Shown here piece by piece: positions 21,065 through 38,244 of a stretch of 38,244 nt of DNA (position 1 is its first letter; every line of letters starts with the position of its first letter). The DNA lies in the IMG/VR virus record IMGVR_UViG_3300028610_001464, positions 1 to 38,244 of that record. One strand, 5' to 3'. Position numbers and translations under genes: made by a program. Below the pieces are notes generated by a model. It saw nothing but the letters and a program-made list of their open reading frames with translations. It did not search any database and was not told where the DNA came from. Source of the stretch: a virus.

Positions 21065-22447
21065 ATGGCAATAGATATAGATGATATTAGCAGAAGAAAT
21101 CAACATACTGCTACACCTGCACAAGCTACTTTTATATATGGTTTTCCAATTTTTGCAGCTACAGATATATCAATTTATCAGACTCTTGCGGGTCAGGATG
21201 CAGATGATTTAGCAGATAAATTAGAATATTTAGTTGACTATACGTTGACAGGTATAGGGGTTCAAACTGGCGGAACATTTATTTTGGTAAATCCAGCTGC
21301 TGAAGGAGATACTCTTACTGCAGCTGGTAACACAATGTCTTTATCTAGAACATCTAAATTTTCGACAAATGCATCAATTGCATCTGAAACATTGGATGAA
21401 GAATTTAATAATTCTTTGTTGATGATTCAACAAGTCAATACAAGAATAGATGAGTTACAAACTCAATATCAATATTCAGAAATAGTTGATTCAATTATTG
21501 ATCGTAAATTACCAGCTCTTGGTGCAGGTCAAGGATGGGTAATGAATGATGAAAGAACAAAAATAGAAGCAGTAGATATTGAATCAGGCGGTGGAAGTGC
21601 TGATTTATTAAGAGCTGAATTAGCAGATCAAACAGCAGGAATAGATGGAACAAGATTAGTTGGTTATAATCATTTGTCATACGGTGGTCTTACTACACAC
21701 GATATACTTGATATAATAATTTATGATATAAAAACAGGGCTAAGTCTAGTTGATATTCAAAGAGGTGAATATAATGCGGTTACAATAACAGGCCCTAATA
21801 TTTACACAGGATCATTAACCCCTACTCCATTAGCCTATAATGAAGGAATGACAATTCATGCAACTGTATTGCATACTAACAACCAACTCTCTACATTAAA
21901 TTTAAATGGTCTTGGGGCTAGGTCAATAAAATCGTTAGATGGAAATGAGCTTATATATGGAGAGCTTCGTGCGACTAATGTTTATCAACTTATTTACACT
22001 TCAGATAATGAATGGAGAATGATGGGTGCTCCTCCTTCTTCTACAGAAGAAGCAGGATTAGCAGAAGTAGCAACTTTACCAGAAGTATATCTTGGAATAG
22101 ATATAGTAAGAACTATTACTCCATATACTCTTGGGGTAGTAATAGACAACCTTGCTCCTAGCGGAAGTGATGTTTTATATGCGACTAACGGATATAGAAA
22201 ATTTGATGGTGGATTAATAATGCAATGGGGAAAGGCGCATATATCAGCGTTAACTACAGAGACTGTATATTATATTACCTCACAAGAATTTGTATTTAAT
22301 ATACAATTGAGTTCGGAAGTAGGTACTGGTTTATTTCCGCAAATATTTTTAAAATCGTATGACAATGAGGCATTTAAGGTTTACATGAATGGTACTGGAA
22401 CATTAAATTATCATTGGGTGTCAATAGGAAAAGTATATGATGATTAG
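21065..22447 (+). CDS. Tail fibre protein, tandem copy A
   Basis: A 460-residue protein. Residues 1-130 have the layout of the T7-type tail fibre N-terminal (virion-binding) domain: TATPAQATFIYGFPIF, a strand with YTLTGIGVQTGGTFILVNPAAEGDTLT, and SETLDEEFNNSLLMIQQVNTR, which corresponds to the 'distance-to-next-helix' end of that domain. A middle shaft follows, and the last ~85 residues (YRKFDGGLIMQWGKA...WVSIGKVYDD) resemble the common C-terminal knob of phage fibres that binds the receptor. The next gene is a near-duplicate. Weak site AATAAGGATTAAAT precedes the ATG. Confidence 0.8.
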   Translation: MAIDIDDISRRNQHTATPAQATFIYGFPIFAATDISIYQTLAGQDADDLADKLEYLVDYTLTGIGVQTGGTFILVNPAAEGDTLTAAGNTMSLSRTSKFSTNASIASETLDEEFNNSLLMIQQVNTRIDELQTQYQYSEIVDSIIDRKLPALGAGQGWVMNDERTKIEAVDIESGGGSADLLRAELADQTAGIDGTRLVGYNHLSYGGLTTHDILDIIIYDIKTGLSLVDIQRGEYNAVTITGPNIYTGSLTPTPLAYNEGMTIHATVLHTNNQLSTLNLNGLGARSIKSLDGNELIYGELRATNVYQLIYTSDNEWRMMGAPPSSTEEAGLAEVATLPEVYLGIDIVRTITPYTLGVVIDNLAPSGSDVLYATNGYRKFDGGLIMQWGKAHISALTTETVYYITSQEFVFNIQLSSEVGTGLFPQIFLKSYDNEAFKVYMNGTGTLNYHWVSIGKVYDD

Positions 22448-22457
22448 GGGCTAACCT

Positions 22458-23840
22458 ATGACGACAATAGATATAGATGATAGTGACAGAAGAAATCAAT
22501 ACACTGCTACACCTGCACAAGCTACTTTTATATATAGTTTTCCAATTTTTGCAGCTACAGATATATCAATTTATCAGACTCTTGCGGGTCAGAATGCAGA
22601 TGATTTAGTAGATATATTAGAATATTTAGTTGACTATACGTTGACAGCTGTAGGGGTTCAAACTGGCGGAACATTTATTTTGACAAATCCAGCTGCTGAA
22701 GGAGATACCCTTACTGCAGCTGGTAACACAATGTCTTTATCTAGAACAGCTAAATTTTCGACAAATGCATCAATTGAATCTGAAACATTGGATGAAGAAT
22801 TTAATAATTCTTTGTTGATGATTCAACAAGTCAATACAAGGGTAAATAAGTCACAAACTCAATATCAATATTCAGAAATAGTTGATTCAATTATTGATCG
22901 TAAATTACCAGTTCTTGGTGAAGGCCAAGGATGGGTGATGAATGATCAAAGAACAAAAATAGAACCAGTAGATATTGAATCAGGCGGTGGAAGTGCTGAT
23001 TTATTAAGAGCTGACTTAGCAGAGCAAACAGCGGGAGTAGATGGAGCAAGATTAGTTGGTTATAATCATTTGTCATACGGTGGTCTTACTACACACGATA
23101 TACTTGATATAATAATTAATGATATAAGAACAGGGCTAAGTCTAGTTGATGTTCAAAGAGGTGAATATAATGCGGTTACAATAACAGGCCCTAATGTTTA
23201 CACAGGATCATTAACCCCTACTCCATTAGCCTATAATGAAGGAATGACAATCCATGCAGCGGTATTGCATACTAATACAGTATTTTCTACATTAAATTTA
23301 AATGGTCTTGGGGCCAGGCCAATAAAATCGTTAGATGGAAATGACCTTATATATGGAGAGCTTCGTGCGACTAATGTTCATCAACTTATTTACACTTCAG
23401 ATAATGAATGGAGAATGACGGGTGCTCCTTCTACTTCTACAGAAGAAGCAGGATTAGCAGAAGTAGCAACTTTACCAGAAGTATATCTTGGAGCAGATGT
23501 AGTAAGAACTATTTCTCCATATACTCTTGGGGTAGTAATAGACAGCCTTGCTCCTAGCGAAAGTGATGTTTTATATGCGACTAACGGATATAGAAAGTTT
23601 GATGGTGGATTAATAATGCAATGGGGCATCGGAACTGCAGAACCAAATACAGATATAACAGTATATTATAATACCTCACAAGAATTTGTATTTAATGTAG
23701 TATTGACTAAGCATGAGGGTTCTGGTGTATTTCTGCAAATATTTTTAAGAAGTTATGATGCTGAAAAATTTGTTGTTTATATGAGTGGTCTCGGAACACA
23801 ACCTTTTCAGTGGTCATCAATAGGGAAGGTATACGAATGA
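22458..23840 (+). CDS. Tail fibre protein, tandem copy B
   Basis: Also 460 residues and near-identical to the gene before it (start offset 1393 bases) over about the first 390 residues, with scattered substitutions such as D/N and I/V. From QWG onward (~390) the sequences diverge clearly: KAHISALTTETVYYITSQEF in copy A, IGTAEPNTDITVYYNTSQEF in copy B, with further differences up to the shared end SIGKVY. Divergence concentrated at the predicted receptor-binding tip suggests alternative specificities. It lies 10 bases after copy A. Confidence 0.8.
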   Translation: MTTIDIDDSDRRNQYTATPAQATFIYSFPIFAATDISIYQTLAGQNADDLVDILEYLVDYTLTAVGVQTGGTFILTNPAAEGDTLTAAGNTMSLSRTAKFSTNASIESETLDEEFNNSLLMIQQVNTRVNKSQTQYQYSEIVDSIIDRKLPVLGEGQGWVMNDQRTKIEPVDIESGGGSADLLRADLAEQTAGVDGARLVGYNHLSYGGLTTHDILDIIINDIRTGLSLVDVQRGEYNAVTITGPNVYTGSLTPTPLAYNEGMTIHAAVLHTNTVFSTLNLNGLGARPIKSLDGNDLIYGELRATNVHQLIYTSDNEWRMTGAPSTSTEEAGLAEVATLPEVYLGADVVRTISPYTLGVVIDSLAPSESDVLYATNGYRKFDGGLIMQWGIGTAEPNTDITVYYNTSQEFVFNVVLTKHEGSGVFLQIFLRSYDAEKFVVYMSGLGTQPFQWSSIGKVYE

Positions 23841-27259: not shown

Positions 27260-27934
27260 TTAAACATCCTCAAAATAATCATTTACCTTATCGGCAACAT
27301 ATTGAAGATCATTTGGTATGTAAAGTTCATTAAACATATCCATTGGCGATTTTGCAATTGTATTACCATCTCCCTGGGTCTGAAAGACATATCCTTCCTC
27401 TCTGATATGAGAATAAAACACAACTGAAAACATTCCTTCTATGGAAATTTTATCGTCTAACATTTTACCTATTGTTTTGCATTTGATTTTTCCATTTGCA
27501 TCGGTATCGCAATGTGATAGATAAAAAAATGTTAAATCATTTCTAGCAAAGTTAGATGCATTTATAACATCCCATGCATGCTTGGCTATCTCTGTAAATT
27601 TCTCATAACCTTTTTCGCTGGCTCTATTCATGAACTCATTAGCCATTATATATTGAAAGTCATCTATAATAACATTCTTTATATCTATACGATGCTTTGA
27701 TATATATTGCATTATACTACAAATCTTTGAATATTTGTCGGTATAAAGATAATTTGTTTCATTTGTTATCTTACCATCTTCATCTTTTACTATGATATAA
27801 TTCCTTCTCCATCCTTTGAACGGAAGAGGTTTATCAAGTACATTAATAATAAATGTTTCCTTTGGGTTTAGGGTTCTAATAGCAGTGCTTTTACCGCTGC
27901 CTGACTCGCCTATGATAAGTACATTTGTACTCAT
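27260..27934 (-). CDS. P-loop ATPase, AAA_24/Sak4-like recombinase
   Basis: A 224-residue protein with GGAGATATAATT before the ATG. Walker A is GESGSGKST (residues 9-17); Walker B is VIIDDFQYIM (~89-98), followed by a sensor-like FFYLSHCDTD stretch (~150). Size and motif spacing fit the AAA_24/Sak4 group of RecA-like annealing ATPases that phages use in recombination or replication. Paired with the adjacent SSB-like gene. DNA annealing or strand-exchange assistance is expected, not shown. Confidence 0.8.
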   Translation of the reverse strand: MSTNVLIIGESGSGKSTAIRTLNPKETFIINVLDKPLPFKGWRRNYIIVKDEDGKITNETNYLYTDKYSKICSIMQYISKHRIDIKNVIIDDFQYIMANEFMNRASEKGYEKFTEIAKHAWDVINASNFARNDLTFFYLSHCDTDANGKIKCKTIGKMLDDKISIEGMFSVVFYSHIREEGYVFQTQGDGNTIAKSPMDMFNELYIPNDLQYVADKVNDYFEDV

Positions 27935-28495: not shown

Positions 28496-28765
28496 TCATG
28501 ATTTATCCCTTTTAGCGAAAGTTACTATCTTTCCTAAATCCCATTCCTTATCCATTTCATAGATGAAATCTACTAGATCCTCGTCAGAAGCCCAGTCTTC
28601 ACCTATAGCAACATTTAACCATTGAACTAATTGTTCGGGTGAATAATCTAACCTTATAAAAGCTTGTTTCTTTTTGTTAGGTAGATAATCACTTTTACGA
28701 TTGGTTTCAAAGTTCTTTTCAATAACAAGTGCTGCGTCAAAGATATCCAATAAATTAATGCTCAT
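28496..28765 (-). CDS. Hypothetical acidic protein, first in leftward transcript
   Basis: An 89-residue acidic protein with GGAGTATACGTT before the ATG, directly downstream of a good minus-strand promoter (28819-28846). Helical; includes LDYSPEQLVQWLNVAIGEDW and ends with basic FAKRDKS. Its end shares a KRDxS/KRDEL-type tail with the neighbouring gene. No family recognised. Confidence 0.65.
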   Translation of the reverse strand: MSINLLDIFDAALVIEKNFETNRKSDYLPNKKKQAFIRLDYSPEQLVQWLNVAIGEDWASDEDLVDFIYEMDKEWDLGKIVTFAKRDKS

Positions 28766-28818
28766 AACGTATACTCCTTTAACATTTAAGATAATGAAAT
28801 TATTATTGTTATAGCCTC

Positions 28819-28846
28819 AGTATATAATACTATTATTATATGTCAA
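28819..28846 (-). promoter_or_regulatory. Sigma70-type promoter with internal operator dyad, leftward
   Basis: On the minus strand TTGACA (complement of 28841-28846) is followed 16 bases later by TATACT (complement of 28819-28824). Between them lies the dyad TATAATA-CTAT-TATTATA (28823-28840), covering the spacer, a classical place for a repressor. The YdaS/Cro-like gene just upstream is the obvious candidate binder. Confidence 0.7.
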
Positions 28847-28864
28847 GTATTTATTTGAAAATAA

Positions 28865-29092
28865 TTAATACTTTAAATCAGGACGTATTTTATAGGCTTT
28901 AATTTTGCCTTTAGTTAATTTCTCTATTTTCTTAGCGATGGTTACATTGGGTAAAATACATCCGTGATACCAATTATTAACATAAGCAGGATATGCTTTT
29001 AGCTTTCTAGCGGCTTCGGCCTGAATTCCGCCACAATAGTTTTCAACAAATAATCTAAATGATTTGCAATCATGCTTGTTTGTTTCTTTCAT
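28865..29092 (-). CDS. YdaS/Cro-like helix-turn-helix regulator
   Basis: A 75-residue DNA-binding protein with GGAGAAAGAAA before the ATG. The helix-turn-helix region (QAEAARKLKAYPAYVNNWYHG) and the ending IEKLTKGKIKAYKIRPDL match the YdaS/Cro type, whose members end in ...RPDL. Placed at the divergent control region, it probably represses its own and neighbouring early promoters. No CI-type partner is visible. Confidence 0.8.
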   Translation of the reverse strand: MKETNKHDCKSFRLFVENYCGGIQAEAARKLKAYPAYVNNWYHGCILPNVTIAKKIEKLTKGKIKAYKIRPDLKY

Positions 29093-29220
29093 TTTCTTTC
29101 TCCTTATATAATATAATTAAACAGTGTACATATATTTATTATAATGTCTAATATAAATATATTATAAATATATTATAAATAAATATTGCATTTATATAAT
29201 TAAGTGTTATTATTGCGATT
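29093..29220. promoter_or_regulatory. AT-rich divergent control region
   Basis: An almost pure A/T stretch with two 11-bp tandem units ATATATTATAA (29157-29178) containing the TATTATA half-site of the operator at 28823-28840. Plus-strand candidate: TTGCAT (29186-29191), 16-base spacer, TATTAT (29208-29213), predicting a start near 29221; a perfect TATAAT also lies at 29195-29200. Minus-strand candidate: TTAGAC, 17 bases, TACACT (near 29127-29150), for the YdaS-like gene. All are predictions. Confidence 0.5.
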
Positions 29221-29478
29221 GCCCGGATGTGCGTTCTAATAACAATAACACTCTTGCGCAACAACAAAAAAAAAAGTCATCCGGGCTTACGTTACAATTG
29301 ACCCAATCTCTTTGATTTGATATTCTTTCAATTACTAAACGTTGAAAGCTTTCAATTAGAGTTTTTCAATCGGGTGCCAATTTCAAATTAGCAGGGCTCA
29401 TGGTATTTTGGTCTTGCTTTTCTTGATTCAACGTTTAGTACCGTGGCACCCGTTTGAAGATCTCTAGTAAGGAGACTG
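29221..29478 (+). ncRNA. Structured leader of the Rep-like gene, possible pseudoknot
   Basis: Three perfect long-range pairings: GCCCGGATG (29221-29229) with CATCCGGGC (29278-29286); TACTAAACGTTGAA (29333-29346) with TTCAACGTTTAGTA (29427-29440); CGGGTGCCA (29371-29379) with TGGCACCCG (29444-29452). The last two pairs interlock (A, B, A', B'), the order of a pseudoknot. A 14-base palindrome TTGAAAGCTTTCAA (29342-29355) overlaps arm A and could compete. The element lies 17 bases before the ribosome-binding site of the next gene, so it may control its translation. As DNA it could instead be cruciform-forming binding sites. Confidence 0.6.
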
Positions 29479-29736
29479 GTGGTTGTGGCGCTTTGGATTC
29501 CAGATGAGATAGATAACATTGCCGGGATTTCACTTGTTGAGAAGCACTTACTCGCCTATATTTATTCCTTTCAAAATTCTGGAGCAATTTGTTTTGCTTC
29601 TAATTCTATATTTGAAAAAAGATGCATGTGCAGTAGAAGTACTATTAAGCGTGCATTGAATCACCTACTCGACCTAGGTCTTCTTAACATTGGATTTACT
29701 TCTTATTGTTTGCGCGAATTCTCCGTAATTCTTTAA
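29479..29736 (+). CDS. Winged-helix (HTH_36-like) Rep-like protein
   Basis: Up to 85 residues with a GTG start: either 29479 (4 bases from AAGGAG) or 29485 (10 bases), the latter giving MALWIPDEID. The HTH_36 profile is clear: WIPDEIDNIAGISLVEKHLLAYI, then a recognition part CMCSRSTIKRALNHLLDLGLL. This domain heads many phage and plasmid replication initiators; here it stands alone, far shorter than a two-domain plasmid Rep. The gene lies between a structured leader and an array of DnaA boxes and 22-bp repeats, so an initiator or copy regulator is likely. Confidence 0.7.
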   Translation: MVVALWIPDEIDNIAGISLVEKHLLAYIYSFQNSGAICFASNSIFEKRCMCSRSTIKRALNHLLDLGLLNIGFTSYCLREFSVIL

Positions 29737-29755
29737 CCTTTATATTATATATGCC

Positions 29756-29808
29756 TGTGGATAACTTGTGGATAACTTGTGGATAACCTGTGGATAACTT
29801 GTGGATAA
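29756..29808 (+). repeat. Five DnaA boxes at exact 11-bp spacing
   Basis: TGTGGATAA (complement of TTATCCACA, the strong DnaA box) starts at 29756, 29767, 29778, 29789 and 29800, all in one orientation, one helical turn apart. The full 11-base unit is (T/C)TGTGGATAAC with little variation. Such a phased array is expected to bind host DnaA cooperatively. Located right after the Rep-like gene and before the 22-bp repeats. Confidence 0.95.
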
Positions 29809-29829
29809 GTAGCATCAAAATAGGCTTAG

Positions 29830-29892
29830 TAGGTCCATGGTGGACCTAGGGTAGGTCCATGGTGAACCTACCCTAGGTCCATGGTGAACCCT
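29830..29892 (+). repeat. Three 22-bp iteron-like repeats
   Basis: Units start at 29830, 29852 and 29874 with constant 22-base period. Unit 1 is the palindrome TAGGTCCATGGTGGACCTA (8-bp arms, TGG centre); units 2 and 3 read TAGGTCCATGGTGAACC, with one arm changed. Size and phasing (two helical turns) match plasmid iterons bound by Rep proteins. Confidence 0.9.
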
Positions 29893-29945
29893 ATATATAT
29901 AAAGACTATAAATAAATCTTTATGAATAAAAGATATTATCTAGAA
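29893..29945. other. AT-rich candidate unwinding element
   Basis: Directly after the 22-bp repeats, about 50 bases are nearly all A/T (TATATATAAAGACTATAAAT and on). Together with DnaA boxes and iterons this completes the layout of a theta origin (binding sites next to an easily melted region). Inference from layout. Confidence 0.5.
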
Positions 29946-30248
29946 TGTAAAACAAGAATATTTTCCAAGGCAGTTGAAAATGGGGGGCAAGCCCCCCAAG
30001 CCCCCAACAGCCAAAAAACCATGGGTGTAAGTAATATGATTAAAGAACCGATTGAGGATAAGAAATGCTGCGTCTGTAGGGCTTTTTTAAAAGACCCGAT
30101 AGCTGTAGGTAATAAAAGATGGCTCATTTATTTTTGTGAGAAGCATTATTTGTCGCGTGTGGTGATAGGTAGCATGATAAAAGAATATGGTTATGAGTTA
30201 TGCAAGAAGCACAATGTGATGTTGAATTTTAACCTTGACAAGAAGTGA
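29922..30248 (+). CDS. Small Cys/His protein beside the origin (start uncertain)
   Basis: The frame is open from 29922 (108 residues), but no ribosome-binding site precedes that ATG and the first 33 residues include the odd NGGQAPQAPNSQ encoded by the G/C hairpin. Starts at 30021 (MGVSNMIKEP) or 30036 (MIKEP) are equally possible. The conserved-looking part has CCVC near residue 50 and FCEKH near 77, a likely zinc site (C-x2-C...C-x2-H). No family recognised. Origin-proximal position suggests a regulatory role. Confidence 0.6.
   Translation: MNKRYYLECKTRIFSKAVENGGQAPQAPNSQKTMGVSNMIKEPIEDKKCCVCRAFLKDPIAVGNKRWLIYFCEKHYLSRVVIGSMIKEYGYELCKKHNVMLNFNLDKK
29981..29998. other. G/C-only hairpin after the AT-rich stretch
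   Basis: TGGGGGGC-AA-GCCCCCCA is a perfect 8-bp stem, followed by a further AAGCCCCCA copy of one arm. It stands out in this low-GC genome. It lies inside the longest reading of the next gene, but that gene may start later. Confidence 0.6.
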
Positions 30249-30569
30249 TTTATATACTAGGATGTATGCACGTAGAAATAGGCATTCAAATAAATAAAAG
30301 TTTTTAACAGTTTAGCCATATGAGTCAATTCTTCGGTGTACTTCCATTCGCCGGCTTATTTCTACAGCTCGTATGGCTATTTTAATGCTTGTGGCGCTGT
30401 GTGCACCTCCCAGGGTATTGTTTCCTCCTGAGGGAGGAATATGCATGGCTCCACAGGCGCTTATTTTAGCAGCTCGTGGCGCTACGCATATACACCCCTC
30501 CCAAGGGGGTGTGCTTTTTAGCGGGGGCACATTTGTGTGGCGACGCGGCTTCCTTGACGGAGAGGTCTC
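30249..30569 (+). other. GC-rich structured island without a convincing gene
   Basis: From ~30345 to 30560 base composition is clearly richer in G/C than the flanks. It holds hairpins TTCCTCC-TGAG-GGAGGAA (30420-30437) and ACACCCC/GGGGTGT (~30492-30512), and a diverged duplication: CTTATTT-n4-CAGCTCGT (from 30355) recurs about 105 bases on (from 30460), and GTGGCGCT (30391 and 30477) followed by CTCCCA(A)GGG recurs as well. Both strands have open frames but without ribosome-binding sites or family likeness. A structured RNA or a transferred element is the best reading. 30249-30344 shows nothing of note. Confidence 0.5.
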
Positions 30570-30677
30570 ATGGACATTGTAAAATTCTGTTATCAGCATT
30601 GGGTGCTTACATCATGGTTCTTGATGATAGTTTCTTGTTCTGGGCCGTTTATCAAATTGAGTTTGAAAGGGGAATGA
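30570..30677 (+). CDS. 35-residue single-pass membrane protein
   Basis: A short frame, MDIVKFCYQHWVLTSWFLMI to LKGE, with GGAGAGGTCTC before the ATG. The hydrophobic core (WVLTSWFLMIVSCSG) is long enough for one membrane span, flanked by basic residues. Tiny proteins of this D/E..KFC..HW pattern are common in phage early regions. It precedes the next gene by one base, with a shared leader GGGGAATGAA. Confidence 0.6.
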   Translation: MDIVKFCYQHWVLTSWFLMIVSCSGPFIKLSLKGE

Positions 30678-30678
30678 A

Positions 30679-30867
30679 ATGAAAAAAGATGAAGATAAGG
30701 TTGGGCAAGATAAAATAAACAGGTTCATCTTGGAGAGGCTTTTAGCACTTAACGAAAGCGGGGTGAAAACAATAGAAATGATTGAAAACATGATTGAAGA
30801 CATTGATAATAGACTTCTTAAAATACAAGCTGACGTTAGTGTTCTCTTGAGTTACTTAGATGATTAA
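30679..30867 (+). CDS. Small coiled-coil protein
   Basis: A 62-residue charged protein with continuous heptad-like hydrophobics (RFILERLLALNESGVKTIEM, then IDNRLLKIQADVSVLLSYL). Likely a coiled-coil oligomer. It overlaps the next start by 8 bases and is preceded by AAAGGGGAATGAA. Early-operon function unknown. Confidence 0.65.
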   Translation: MKKDEDKVGQDKINRFILERLLALNESGVKTIEMIENMIEDIDNRLLKIQADVSVLLSYLDD

Positions 30868-31162
30868 ACATAAATTCAATGCAAAGCCGACTGAGCTAGA
30901 CGGTATAATATTTGCATCTAAAAAAGAGGCTCATCGATATCGCACTCTTTGTATCCTACAGCAAGAGGGGGATGTGCTGTTTTTTTTAAGACAGACTCCG
31001 ATTCACCTACCAGGTAATGTTAAGTACGTCTGTGATTTCCAAGTGTTCTGGAAAAATGGAGATATAACCTTCGAGGATGTTAAAGGTGTGAAAACTCCTA
31101 TGTATATAACTAAGAAGAAATTGGTTGAAAGTTTATATCCAATAACAATAACGGAGATATGA
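30860..31162 (+). CDS. DUF1064-type PD-(D/E)xK nuclease
   Basis: A 100-residue protein matching the DUF1064 pattern: KFNAKPTELDGIIFASKKEAHRY at the start, YVCDFQVFW in the middle and FEDVKGVKTPMYITKKKL near the end. Candidate catalytic residues are Glu23, Asp59 and Glu72-x-x-Lys75, the nuclease-fold spacing. Members occur in early phage operons and are thought to resolve branched DNA. Fits the recombination set with the P-loop ATPase and ssDNA-binding protein. Confidence 0.85.
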   Translation: MIKHKFNAKPTELDGIIFASKKEAHRYRTLCILQQEGDVLFFLRQTPIHLPGNVKYVCDFQVFWKNGDITFEDVKGVKTPMYITKKKLVESLYPITITEI

Positions 31163-31163
31163 T

Positions 31164-31505
31164 ATGAGAATTAAAACAAATAGAAAGAACTTGGATGAAT
31201 ATTTAAAACAGTTTGATATGTTGACCGTGTTATCGCAAATGGGAATAGACGCGGTAAATGAATTTTTAGGTTCTCCTAAAAAAGATTTTGCATGTATTAA
31301 ATGCATGTTTCATGAAGAAATAACAGGGTCTTTTGTTATTGATTTAAAGCACAATACCTTTAAATGCTTCGGATGTGGGATAACAGGAGATTTAATAGAT
31401 CTTATAATGCTATACACCGACTATGATCCTACCCCTCTCGGTGATAATTCGTTTGATTTTTTTGAAGCAATCAGGTGGTTGGAGCATGCAAAAGAAGCTG
31501 AATAA
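31164..31505 (+). CDS. Stand-alone CHC2 (DnaG-type) zinc-finger protein
   Basis: A 113-residue protein whose middle is the primase zinc-binding domain: Cys44-x2-Cys47-x2-His50, then FKCFGCGITGDLIDLIM with Cys68-x2-Cys71. No TOPRIM or helicase domain follows, so it cannot prime by itself as known. Either it modulates host DnaG, or it binds ssDNA at the origin. It is preceded by ACGGAGATATGAT, the same leader as the next gene. Confidence 0.85.
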   Translation: MRIKTNRKNLDEYLKQFDMLTVLSQMGIDAVNEFLGSPKKDFACIKCMFHEEITGSFVIDLKHNTFKCFGCGITGDLIDLIMLYTDYDPTPLGDNSFDFFEAIRWLEHAKEAE

Positions 31506-37459: not shown

Positions 37460-37862
37460 AGGCCCGTTGGATCAGCTATCTAAACAATTAGAAGATGGGA
37501 CTTTTTTTCAAGACCCTATGCCACTAGAGTGCAATCAAATCATTCAAGAAATCAATTGTTATTCATTCAAAGAGCTACTCGATCTATTAGATCTATGGCA
37601 TTTGAATAAGCCAGATTTCCAAAATAAATCCACGTTCATAAGCCTTCTTCGCAAACGTGTTCAATTCTTAAAGCATCAGCCTACCGCTGAAGAAATAAAA
37701 AAGGAAAAGAAGACTCCTCCTAAAAGTAAATACAGGGAGAGACGAGATATAGCAGGTATTTGCAAAGAATGCGGCAATGTTTATATAGTTAAGAGCTCTC
37801 AATCCAAATATTGCAGTGAGCTTTGTAAAAATCGAGCACAACGTAAGAGGAAAAAATCATGA
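37449..37862 (+). CDS. Zinc-finger protein 6 of the cassette (right, complete version)
   Basis: A 137-residue protein. The first 77 residues are helical and match the left-end gene (2-310). The end has Cys105-x2-Cys108 and Cys122-x3-Cys126 followed by a basic NRAQRKRKK tail: an FCS/yCS-type zinc finger that usually binds DNA or RNA. The left copy lacks this finger completely. Leader AGGAGATTGTT; the ATG overlaps the previous gene by 11 bases, the stop overlaps the next ATG by 4. Confidence 0.8.
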   Translation: MTLKGPLDQLSKQLEDGTFFQDPMPLECNQIIQEINCYSFKELLDLLDLWHLNKPDFQNKSTFISLLRKRVQFLKHQPTAEEIKKEKKTPPKSKYRERRDIAGICKECGNVYIVKSSQSKYCSELCKNRAQRKRKKS

Positions 37863-38173
37863 CGATCATCACACCAGGAATATCAAATCCACATAAAAAA
37901 CAAAAGTTCGATCCACCTCAAGTAGCGGAAGCAAGCCAAGACGAAACAGATCTAAGAAAACTGATCCATGAAGTATTTGCCGCGAGCGAATGCGGACAGA
38001 GTCTTTTGAAAAAGCTTCATGAGTTGTATGTTGATGTATCTACATTTCCTTCACATCCTAATCAAATTGCACAGTTTGGTTCGACTGAAGCTTATTGTGG
38101 ATTTAGAAGCGGACAGTCTAATGTAATTAAGTGGATTGAGTTTCAAATACAGTCGTGCAAAGAGGGTAATTAA
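37859..38173 (+). CDS. Conserved hypothetical phage protein (right version)
   Basis: A 104-residue second version of the gene at 186-512. Residues after KFDPPQ are almost the same; the N-terminus (TPGISNPHKKQ) is shorter by four residues and different. Start overlaps the previous stop (ATGA), in contrast to the stand-alone ribosome-binding site of the left copy. Confidence 0.75.
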   Translation: MTIITPGISNPHKKQKFDPPQVAEASQDETDLRKLIHEVFAASECGQSLLKKLHELYVDVSTFPSHPNQIAQFGSTEAYCGFRSGQSNVIKWIEFQIQSCKEGN

Positions 38174-38244
38174 TGACTCATAAAAATGCTAACTTAAAAT
38201 TCAATCCATCTGAAGAGAGCATAAGAAGATCTAAATATGTTTAC
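38173..38244 (+). CDS. Start of the second copy of the 512-799 gene, cut by window end
   Basis: The first 24 codons (MTHKNANLKFNPSEESIRRS and on) repeat those at 512-583, with one base change near 38220. Truncated only because the window ends. Confidence 0.8.
   Translation, partial: MTHKNANLKFNPSEESIRRSKYVY

Follow-up and report, generated by a model that had tools for sequence, protein, structure and literature searches.

Why would a virus of bacteria carry a row of five perfect binding sites (DnaA boxes) for the DnaA protein of its host? The question is raised by the IMG/VR virus record IMGVR_UViG_3300028610_001464, of which all 38,244 nucleotides (hereafter the window) were analyzed. The results suggest that the segment 29479-29942 is likely to be a phage replication origin with a cis-acting initiator gene, at which host DnaA would carry out the opening and the helicase loading.

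Anatomy of the locus and a working model

The box TGTGGATAA occurs without error at 29756, 29767, 29778, 29789 and 29800 (array 29756-29808), all copies being on the + strand, which is also the strand of the initiator gene, in steps of 11 bp and with the linkers CT, CT, CC and CT between them in this order. These five copies in one orientation, as well as the Rep-like gene and the AT-rich DNA adjoining them, had been pointed out by the first-pass annotation, and their positions confirm it. The reverse complement of the box, TTATCCACA, is the highest-affinity DnaA box of E. coli (PMC8287927). Only one further exact box was found in the window (25568, - strand), and the expected number of five-box arrays with 11-bp steps in the window, given its base composition, is 5e-21; chance does not explain the array. 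Both sister contigs of the same species (L014 and L022) keep the five boxes together with the initiator's open reading frame (ORF) at an identical length of 85 amino acids. A DnaA-trio (BUS) module 5' of the array was considered and rejected as absent there: on that side of TGTGGATAA, which was the side tested, at most two NAN triplets were found, and the BUS rule calls for DnaA boxes followed by at least three DnaA-trios within 16 bp (PMC8287927).

The initiator gene (29479-29736, + strand) ends 19 bp before the array and encodes a stand-alone winged-helix protein of 85 amino acids, hereafter the mini-initiator, which matched Pfam HTH_36 (E=1.8e-11) and RP-C (0.001) as well as PHROG 270, replication initiation (E=9e-11), and the O-like PHROG 391 (3.8e-7). 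Several replication-initiator PHROGs align to it through their N-terminal part, and the protein thus appears to be the DNA-binding N-terminal domain of phage and plasmid replication initiators without the usual C-terminal part. Since TAA is present in all three + frames of the array, the initiator cannot read through it, which leaves the DNA-binding domain only. No close relatives of the mini-initiator were found in phage records or GTDB contigs, plasmids giving weak matches only, and a sequence search of the PDB with the 85-residue protein returned nothing relevant.

Past the array, after 21 bp, lie three 19-bp dyads of the form TAGGTCCA-TGG-TGRACCTA (29830-29892, assigned to neither strand), which are 22 bp apart, with centres 31, 53 and 75 bp past the last DnaA box; the third is imperfect, and the dyad sequence occurs nowhere else in the window. 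We propose that they are iterons for the binding of a dimer. They are followed by a tract of 88% AT (29893-29942, likewise without strand), which in the stability scan was the second least stable 30-bp site and the third least stable 50-bp site of the window and is proposed as the DNA unwinding element. Directly past this tract, a perfect hairpin GGGGGGC-AA-GCCCCCC (29982-29997) falls within what is annotated as the start of the following ORF, which suggests a later start for this ORF and an origin region reaching about 30020.

Based on these elements, their order, their spacing and their recurrence in other viruses, the origin is probably of the lambda-like iteron type, with an initiator reduced to its DNA-binding domain and with host DnaA opening the origin and loading the helicase. 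In the simplest working model, the winged helix would mark and bend the origin and DnaA would supply melting and helicase loading: dimers of the mini-initiator would bind the three dyads with their 22-bp spacing, in the way that lambda O binds its iterons, host DnaA would occupy the five helically aligned boxes adjoining them, the two proteins would jointly bend the DNA and open the AT tract 29893-29942 by melting, and DnaA would bring in the host DnaB helicase and the host replisome, so that replication would start at this place. DnaA is proposed as the recruiter of DnaB because the initiator has no helicase-recruiting domain and no loader gene was recognized. The recruitment of host DnaA to a phage origin, which the first-pass annotation had suggested, is well fitted by both the anatomy and the comparative evidence, while bidirectional theta replication is what we infer such an origin might support; the 22-bp dyads, the reduction of the "Rep" to its DNA-binding part and the return of the module in other contigs had been overlooked there.

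The gene content is consistent with such dependence on the host. No polymerase, helicase, helicase loader, RNA polymerase, integrase or partition gene was recognized among the window ORFs scanned, where the gene-family scans left out a few short ORFs and a very divergent helicase loader could escape. Genes for DNA polymerase, primase and helicase are, by contrast, present in ct3Et533 and Alteromonas phage ZP6, which are distant structural relatives, and the phage studied here thus probably runs on the host replisome. The earlier assumption that the phage is T7-like and supplies its own replisome therefore does not hold, while the podovirus label does, since the virion genes (head-tail adaptor, tail proteins, major head protein, terminase, holin and endolysin) are of podovirus type.

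Recurrence in other viral contigs

Three-box arrays with gaps of 0-14 bp were found at least 120 times in IMG/VR in comparison to 17 times for a reversed-word control, and their steps cluster at 11-12 and 19-23 bp, corresponding to one and two helical turns, in comparison to 9, 15, 18 and 21 bp for the control. Four-box arrays with 11-bp steps were present in 31 contigs from about 22 unrelated groups. The stand-alone form of the initiator was seen in only three independent cases. In contigs L011 and L024, a stand-alone HTH_36 protein of 92 amino acids ends at an 11-bp array, and in L024 the winged-helix domain runs 2 bp into the first DnaA box, which supplies the stop codon of the gene. The three dyads of L024 (GTACCA-TTT-TGGTAC) are centred 31, 53 and 75 bp past the last box; these offsets equal those of the window, while the dyad sequences differ.

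A profile was built from five initiator proteins and searched on both strands around each of 220 distinct arrays, up to a distance of 1.2 kb. It identified 11 initiator-type winged helices, all 11 being on the strand of the array and on its 5' side; five of these were the profile's own seeds, and the six others (L412, L404, L144, L369, L402 and L441) follow the strand and 5' rule with no exception. Independently of this profile, 50 whole records were searched with Pfam and yielded seven HTH_36 matches, five of them beside an array. Most full-length initiators carry the boxes within the gene, in 12-bp steps between the winged helix and the C-terminal part, where they encode stretches like VDNSVDNSVDK and are then followed by dyads or repeats; in L135 and L226 the dyads are located inside the initiator genes. 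As steps of 12 bp keep the frame and steps of 11 bp close every frame, the window's arrangement is consistent with truncation of the gene at the array. We tentatively suggest, as a possibility short of a probable one, a recurring class of phage origins in which a lambda-O-like initiator retains nothing but its DNA-binding domain and an 11-bp DnaA array replaces the helicase-recruiting half, DnaA doing the loading.

Other arrangements were also noted. In total, 24 distinct arrays sit in an open frame, and the in-gene 12-bp arrays, which encode VDNSVDK-type repeats in phage initiator genes, include L226:1565-1597, L135:10032-10064, L404:9137-9169, L402:9289-9342, L441 and others. On the minus strand of L211 (3823-3866, with positions numbered from the 5' end of this strand), a DnaA array is followed by four or five dyads TACACCAAATGGTGTA in steps of about 23 bp, with no recognizable winged-helix gene upstream, and tandem DnaA boxes are intergenic in a gut microvirus (L043:1653-1672) and in Butyrivibrio phage Bo-Finn (L041:2279-2540).

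Other explanations and contrary evidence

The boxes could instead act as a sink which titrates host DnaA as phage copies rise and thereby blocks host initiation, like datA or multicopy box plasmids; sites of the datA type have DnaA boxes on both sides of an IHF site and catalyze the hydrolysis of ATP-DnaA. Five perfect boxes per genome would, once amplified, bind much DnaA, and multicopy DnaA-box plasmids do raise the initiation mass in E. coli (PMC5835720), but titration leaves unexplained the initiator gene on the same strand and 5' side, the phased dyads 3' of the array and the AT tract, as well as the return of the order initiator, array, dyads in unrelated contigs. Moreover, a phage on host replisomes gains little by removing DnaA if it depends on it, and we therefore regard the sink as unlikely, although it could be a side effect. 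Control of transcription, in which DnaA and a dimeric phage regulator (Cro-like or winged-helix) would regulate the early operon, is judged improbable to the same degree. The dyads do look like operators, the site sits between early genes, and DnaA stimulates lambda pR (PMC7466680); however, no copy of the dyads is present in the divergent promoter region, which is where a regulator should act, promoter-like sites in 28700-31200 are at chance level with none on the + strand between the array and the next gene, and dyads inside the initiator genes of L135 and L226 suit an origin better.

For a packaging, DNA-entry or recombination repeat of the phage-end or injection-stop type, which would merely contain DnaA boxes, a precedent exists in the T5-type injection stop site, where DnaA boxes were reported with repeats and palindromes (PMC13250531), and the arrays of T7-like P483 and several other viruses adjoin packaging genes. 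The window array, however, belongs to the early replication region and is separated by several kb from the gene for the small terminase (33090). Nor is it located at an end of the genome, as the map is circular across the contig ends, and this explanation is therefore very unlikely. Even more improbable is a neutral minisatellite, whose 11-bp unit would have expanded by slippage and contain a DnaA box by coincidence: the window does contain nine further rows called as tandem repeats, but all five 9-mers are perfect with variation confined to the linker, the reversed word yields far fewer viral arrays and other steps, and the neighbourhood of the arrays is non-random in the strand and side of the initiator.

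Several observations weigh against the replication origin proposed here. The GC skew, which the first-pass annotation had suggested as a check, does not point to a bidirectional origin, and the third-position GC skew of + genes stays positive around nearly the whole circle; because the skew follows gene orientation, this check is uninformative. Contig L014, although 99.9% identical, carries one dyad only, so that three dyads are not strictly required unless that contig collapsed the repeat. The box consensus is that of E. coli and may not match the DnaA specificity of this host. Across all arrays, the 31-bp dyad offset gave no significant peak and thus carries weight only among the initiator-linked cases. 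No array is present in the nearest relative L053, the contig of which terminates near the corresponding place, nor in 77 other Sak4-bearing viral loci; this fits a module gained by exchange, and it also indicates that the array is not essential to the virion type of the lineage. Many viral arrays adjoin packaging genes where no initiator was recognized, so that an array by itself is no proof of an origin, and those of P483 and Berlinvirus A7, likewise near packaging genes, were not taken as origins. Finally, the AlphaFold model of the 85-residue protein, made with no alignment, was of low confidence, and neither it nor a PDB fold search was used. Within the initiator family, Methylophilales phage MEP301 encodes a related initiator and has no DnaA boxes, and the array is thus not universal.

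Genome context and known origins

Contig L022 (99.95% identical) spans the two ends of the window, indicating a circular or circularly permuted map of about 37.5 kb. The ends 1-580 and 37514-38244 are near-duplicates with a diverged middle, the second copy adding a zinc-finger-like segment, and the contig appears to be a circular map that carries two strain variants, one at each end. Upstream of the mini-initiator, the divergent early region (29093-29478) separates it from a Cro/YdaS-like regulator (28865-29092, - strand) and contains, according to the stability and folding scans, the stretch of lowest stability in the whole window (29104-29203) as well as a leader (29200-29480) strongly structured in comparison to shuffles (z=-5.9), with long nested inverted repeats. 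The leader is possibly a replication control RNA; Rfam gave no family for it, only a chance miRNA match. The other early genes recognized are a DUF669 gene, a Sak4-like single-strand annealing ATPase (27260-27934, - strand; PHROG 2872, E=6.4e-75), a resolvase of the DUF1064/Holliday junction family (30860-31162, + strand; Pfam 2.2e-14, PHROG 190 1.5e-25) and a protein of 113 amino acids with a DnaG-type zinc ribbon only (31164-31505, + strand; Pfam Zn_ribbon_DnaG 9.1e-11), in which no primase catalytic domain was detected. Elsewhere, a 20-bp unit GTGAAAACATACTTCACATT is repeated 5.3 times without error at 2037-2154, close to the head genes, and two tandem tail-fibre-like proteins of 460 amino acids (21065-23840) are near-copies from a recent duplication.

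Similar arrays led to the idea that the host is Candidatus Dependentiae, which was not supported, as the phage terminase had only distant matches, in one of 101 genomes. In this phylum (TM6/Dependentiae), 21 of the 101 genomes carry arrays of at least three DnaA boxes. These often form a head-to-head pair with a separation of about 150 bp, which is a candidate for the chromosomal origin of the phylum; in L250 (5306-5512) and L252 (1749-1943) such a pair is located upstream of nusA.

In the usual description of phage replication, the phage encodes the initiation functions and hijacks a helicase. If the proposed origin is true, an initiator of one winged helix beside a DnaA array would tie viral replication to the host's control of initiation and offer a very small, testable system for the cooperation of DnaA with iteron-bound proteins. 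Since the pattern recurs in unrelated viral contigs, it can be searched for, with 12-bp in-gene arrays encoding VDN repeats as a simple signature.

Among known systems, the lambda origin shares an initiator with an O-like N-terminal winged helix, several inverted-repeat iterons (19 bp in lambda, bound by O dimers) and a flanking AT tract, about 40 bp long in lambda (PMC5043065, PMC7466680). The lambda origin sits within gene O (PMC7466680), as do the arrays within full-length viral initiators, whereas the window repeats lie past the gene end at 29736; O also has a C-terminal part and works with the loader P, while the window protein is the DNA-binding domain alone, no P-like loader was found in the ORFs scanned, and no DnaA array is described at the lambda origin, in comparison to the five boxes here. 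The pSK41/pPR9 family of plasmids is similar in the HTH_36 (pfam13730) N-terminus of the pPR9 Rep, which is like a phage replication protein, and in the pSK41 origin, which is located inside rep; it differs in the C-terminal domain of Rep, and DnaA boxes were not detected in staphylococcal plasmids (PMC5703833).

Iteron plasmids (RK2, P1, F and pSC101) resemble the window in combining DnaA boxes, iterons and an AT-rich element, in this order with phased iterons in RK2 oriV (PMC4980987), and in the expected aid of host DnaA in origin opening; their iterons, however, are direct repeats bound by a monomeric Rep with two winged helices, in comparison to dyads and one winged helix of 85 amino acids here. 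Five-box 11-bp arrays were found in only nine GTDB contigs, including the dnaA-dnaN origins of a Binatia (L256) and a Blautia (L257) and the RepA plasmid pSOE2 of Pantoea edessiphila (7+7 boxes); Palibaumannia NZ_CP011788.1 has six perfect boxes in 11-bp steps. In these two symbiont plasmids, the 11-bp boxes are followed by iteron-like repeats and RepA is encoded on the same small plasmid, but RepA (Pfam RPA) is a full-length, unrelated initiator and the repeats are direct, with no dyads. The dnaA-dnaN origins have five tandem boxes in 11-bp steps on one strand, without a viral initiator or iterons, while the window has neither dnaA nor dnaN and no run of at least three DnaA-trios. The presence of 11-bp arrays at dnaA-dnaN and RepA origins indicates that this spacing is used by real DnaA origins. 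Compared with the open-access papers covered, the window origin would therefore be a new variant of known origin types, in which lambda-like dyads and an AT tract are joined with a plasmid- or oriC-like DnaA array and an initiator without the helicase-recruiting part.
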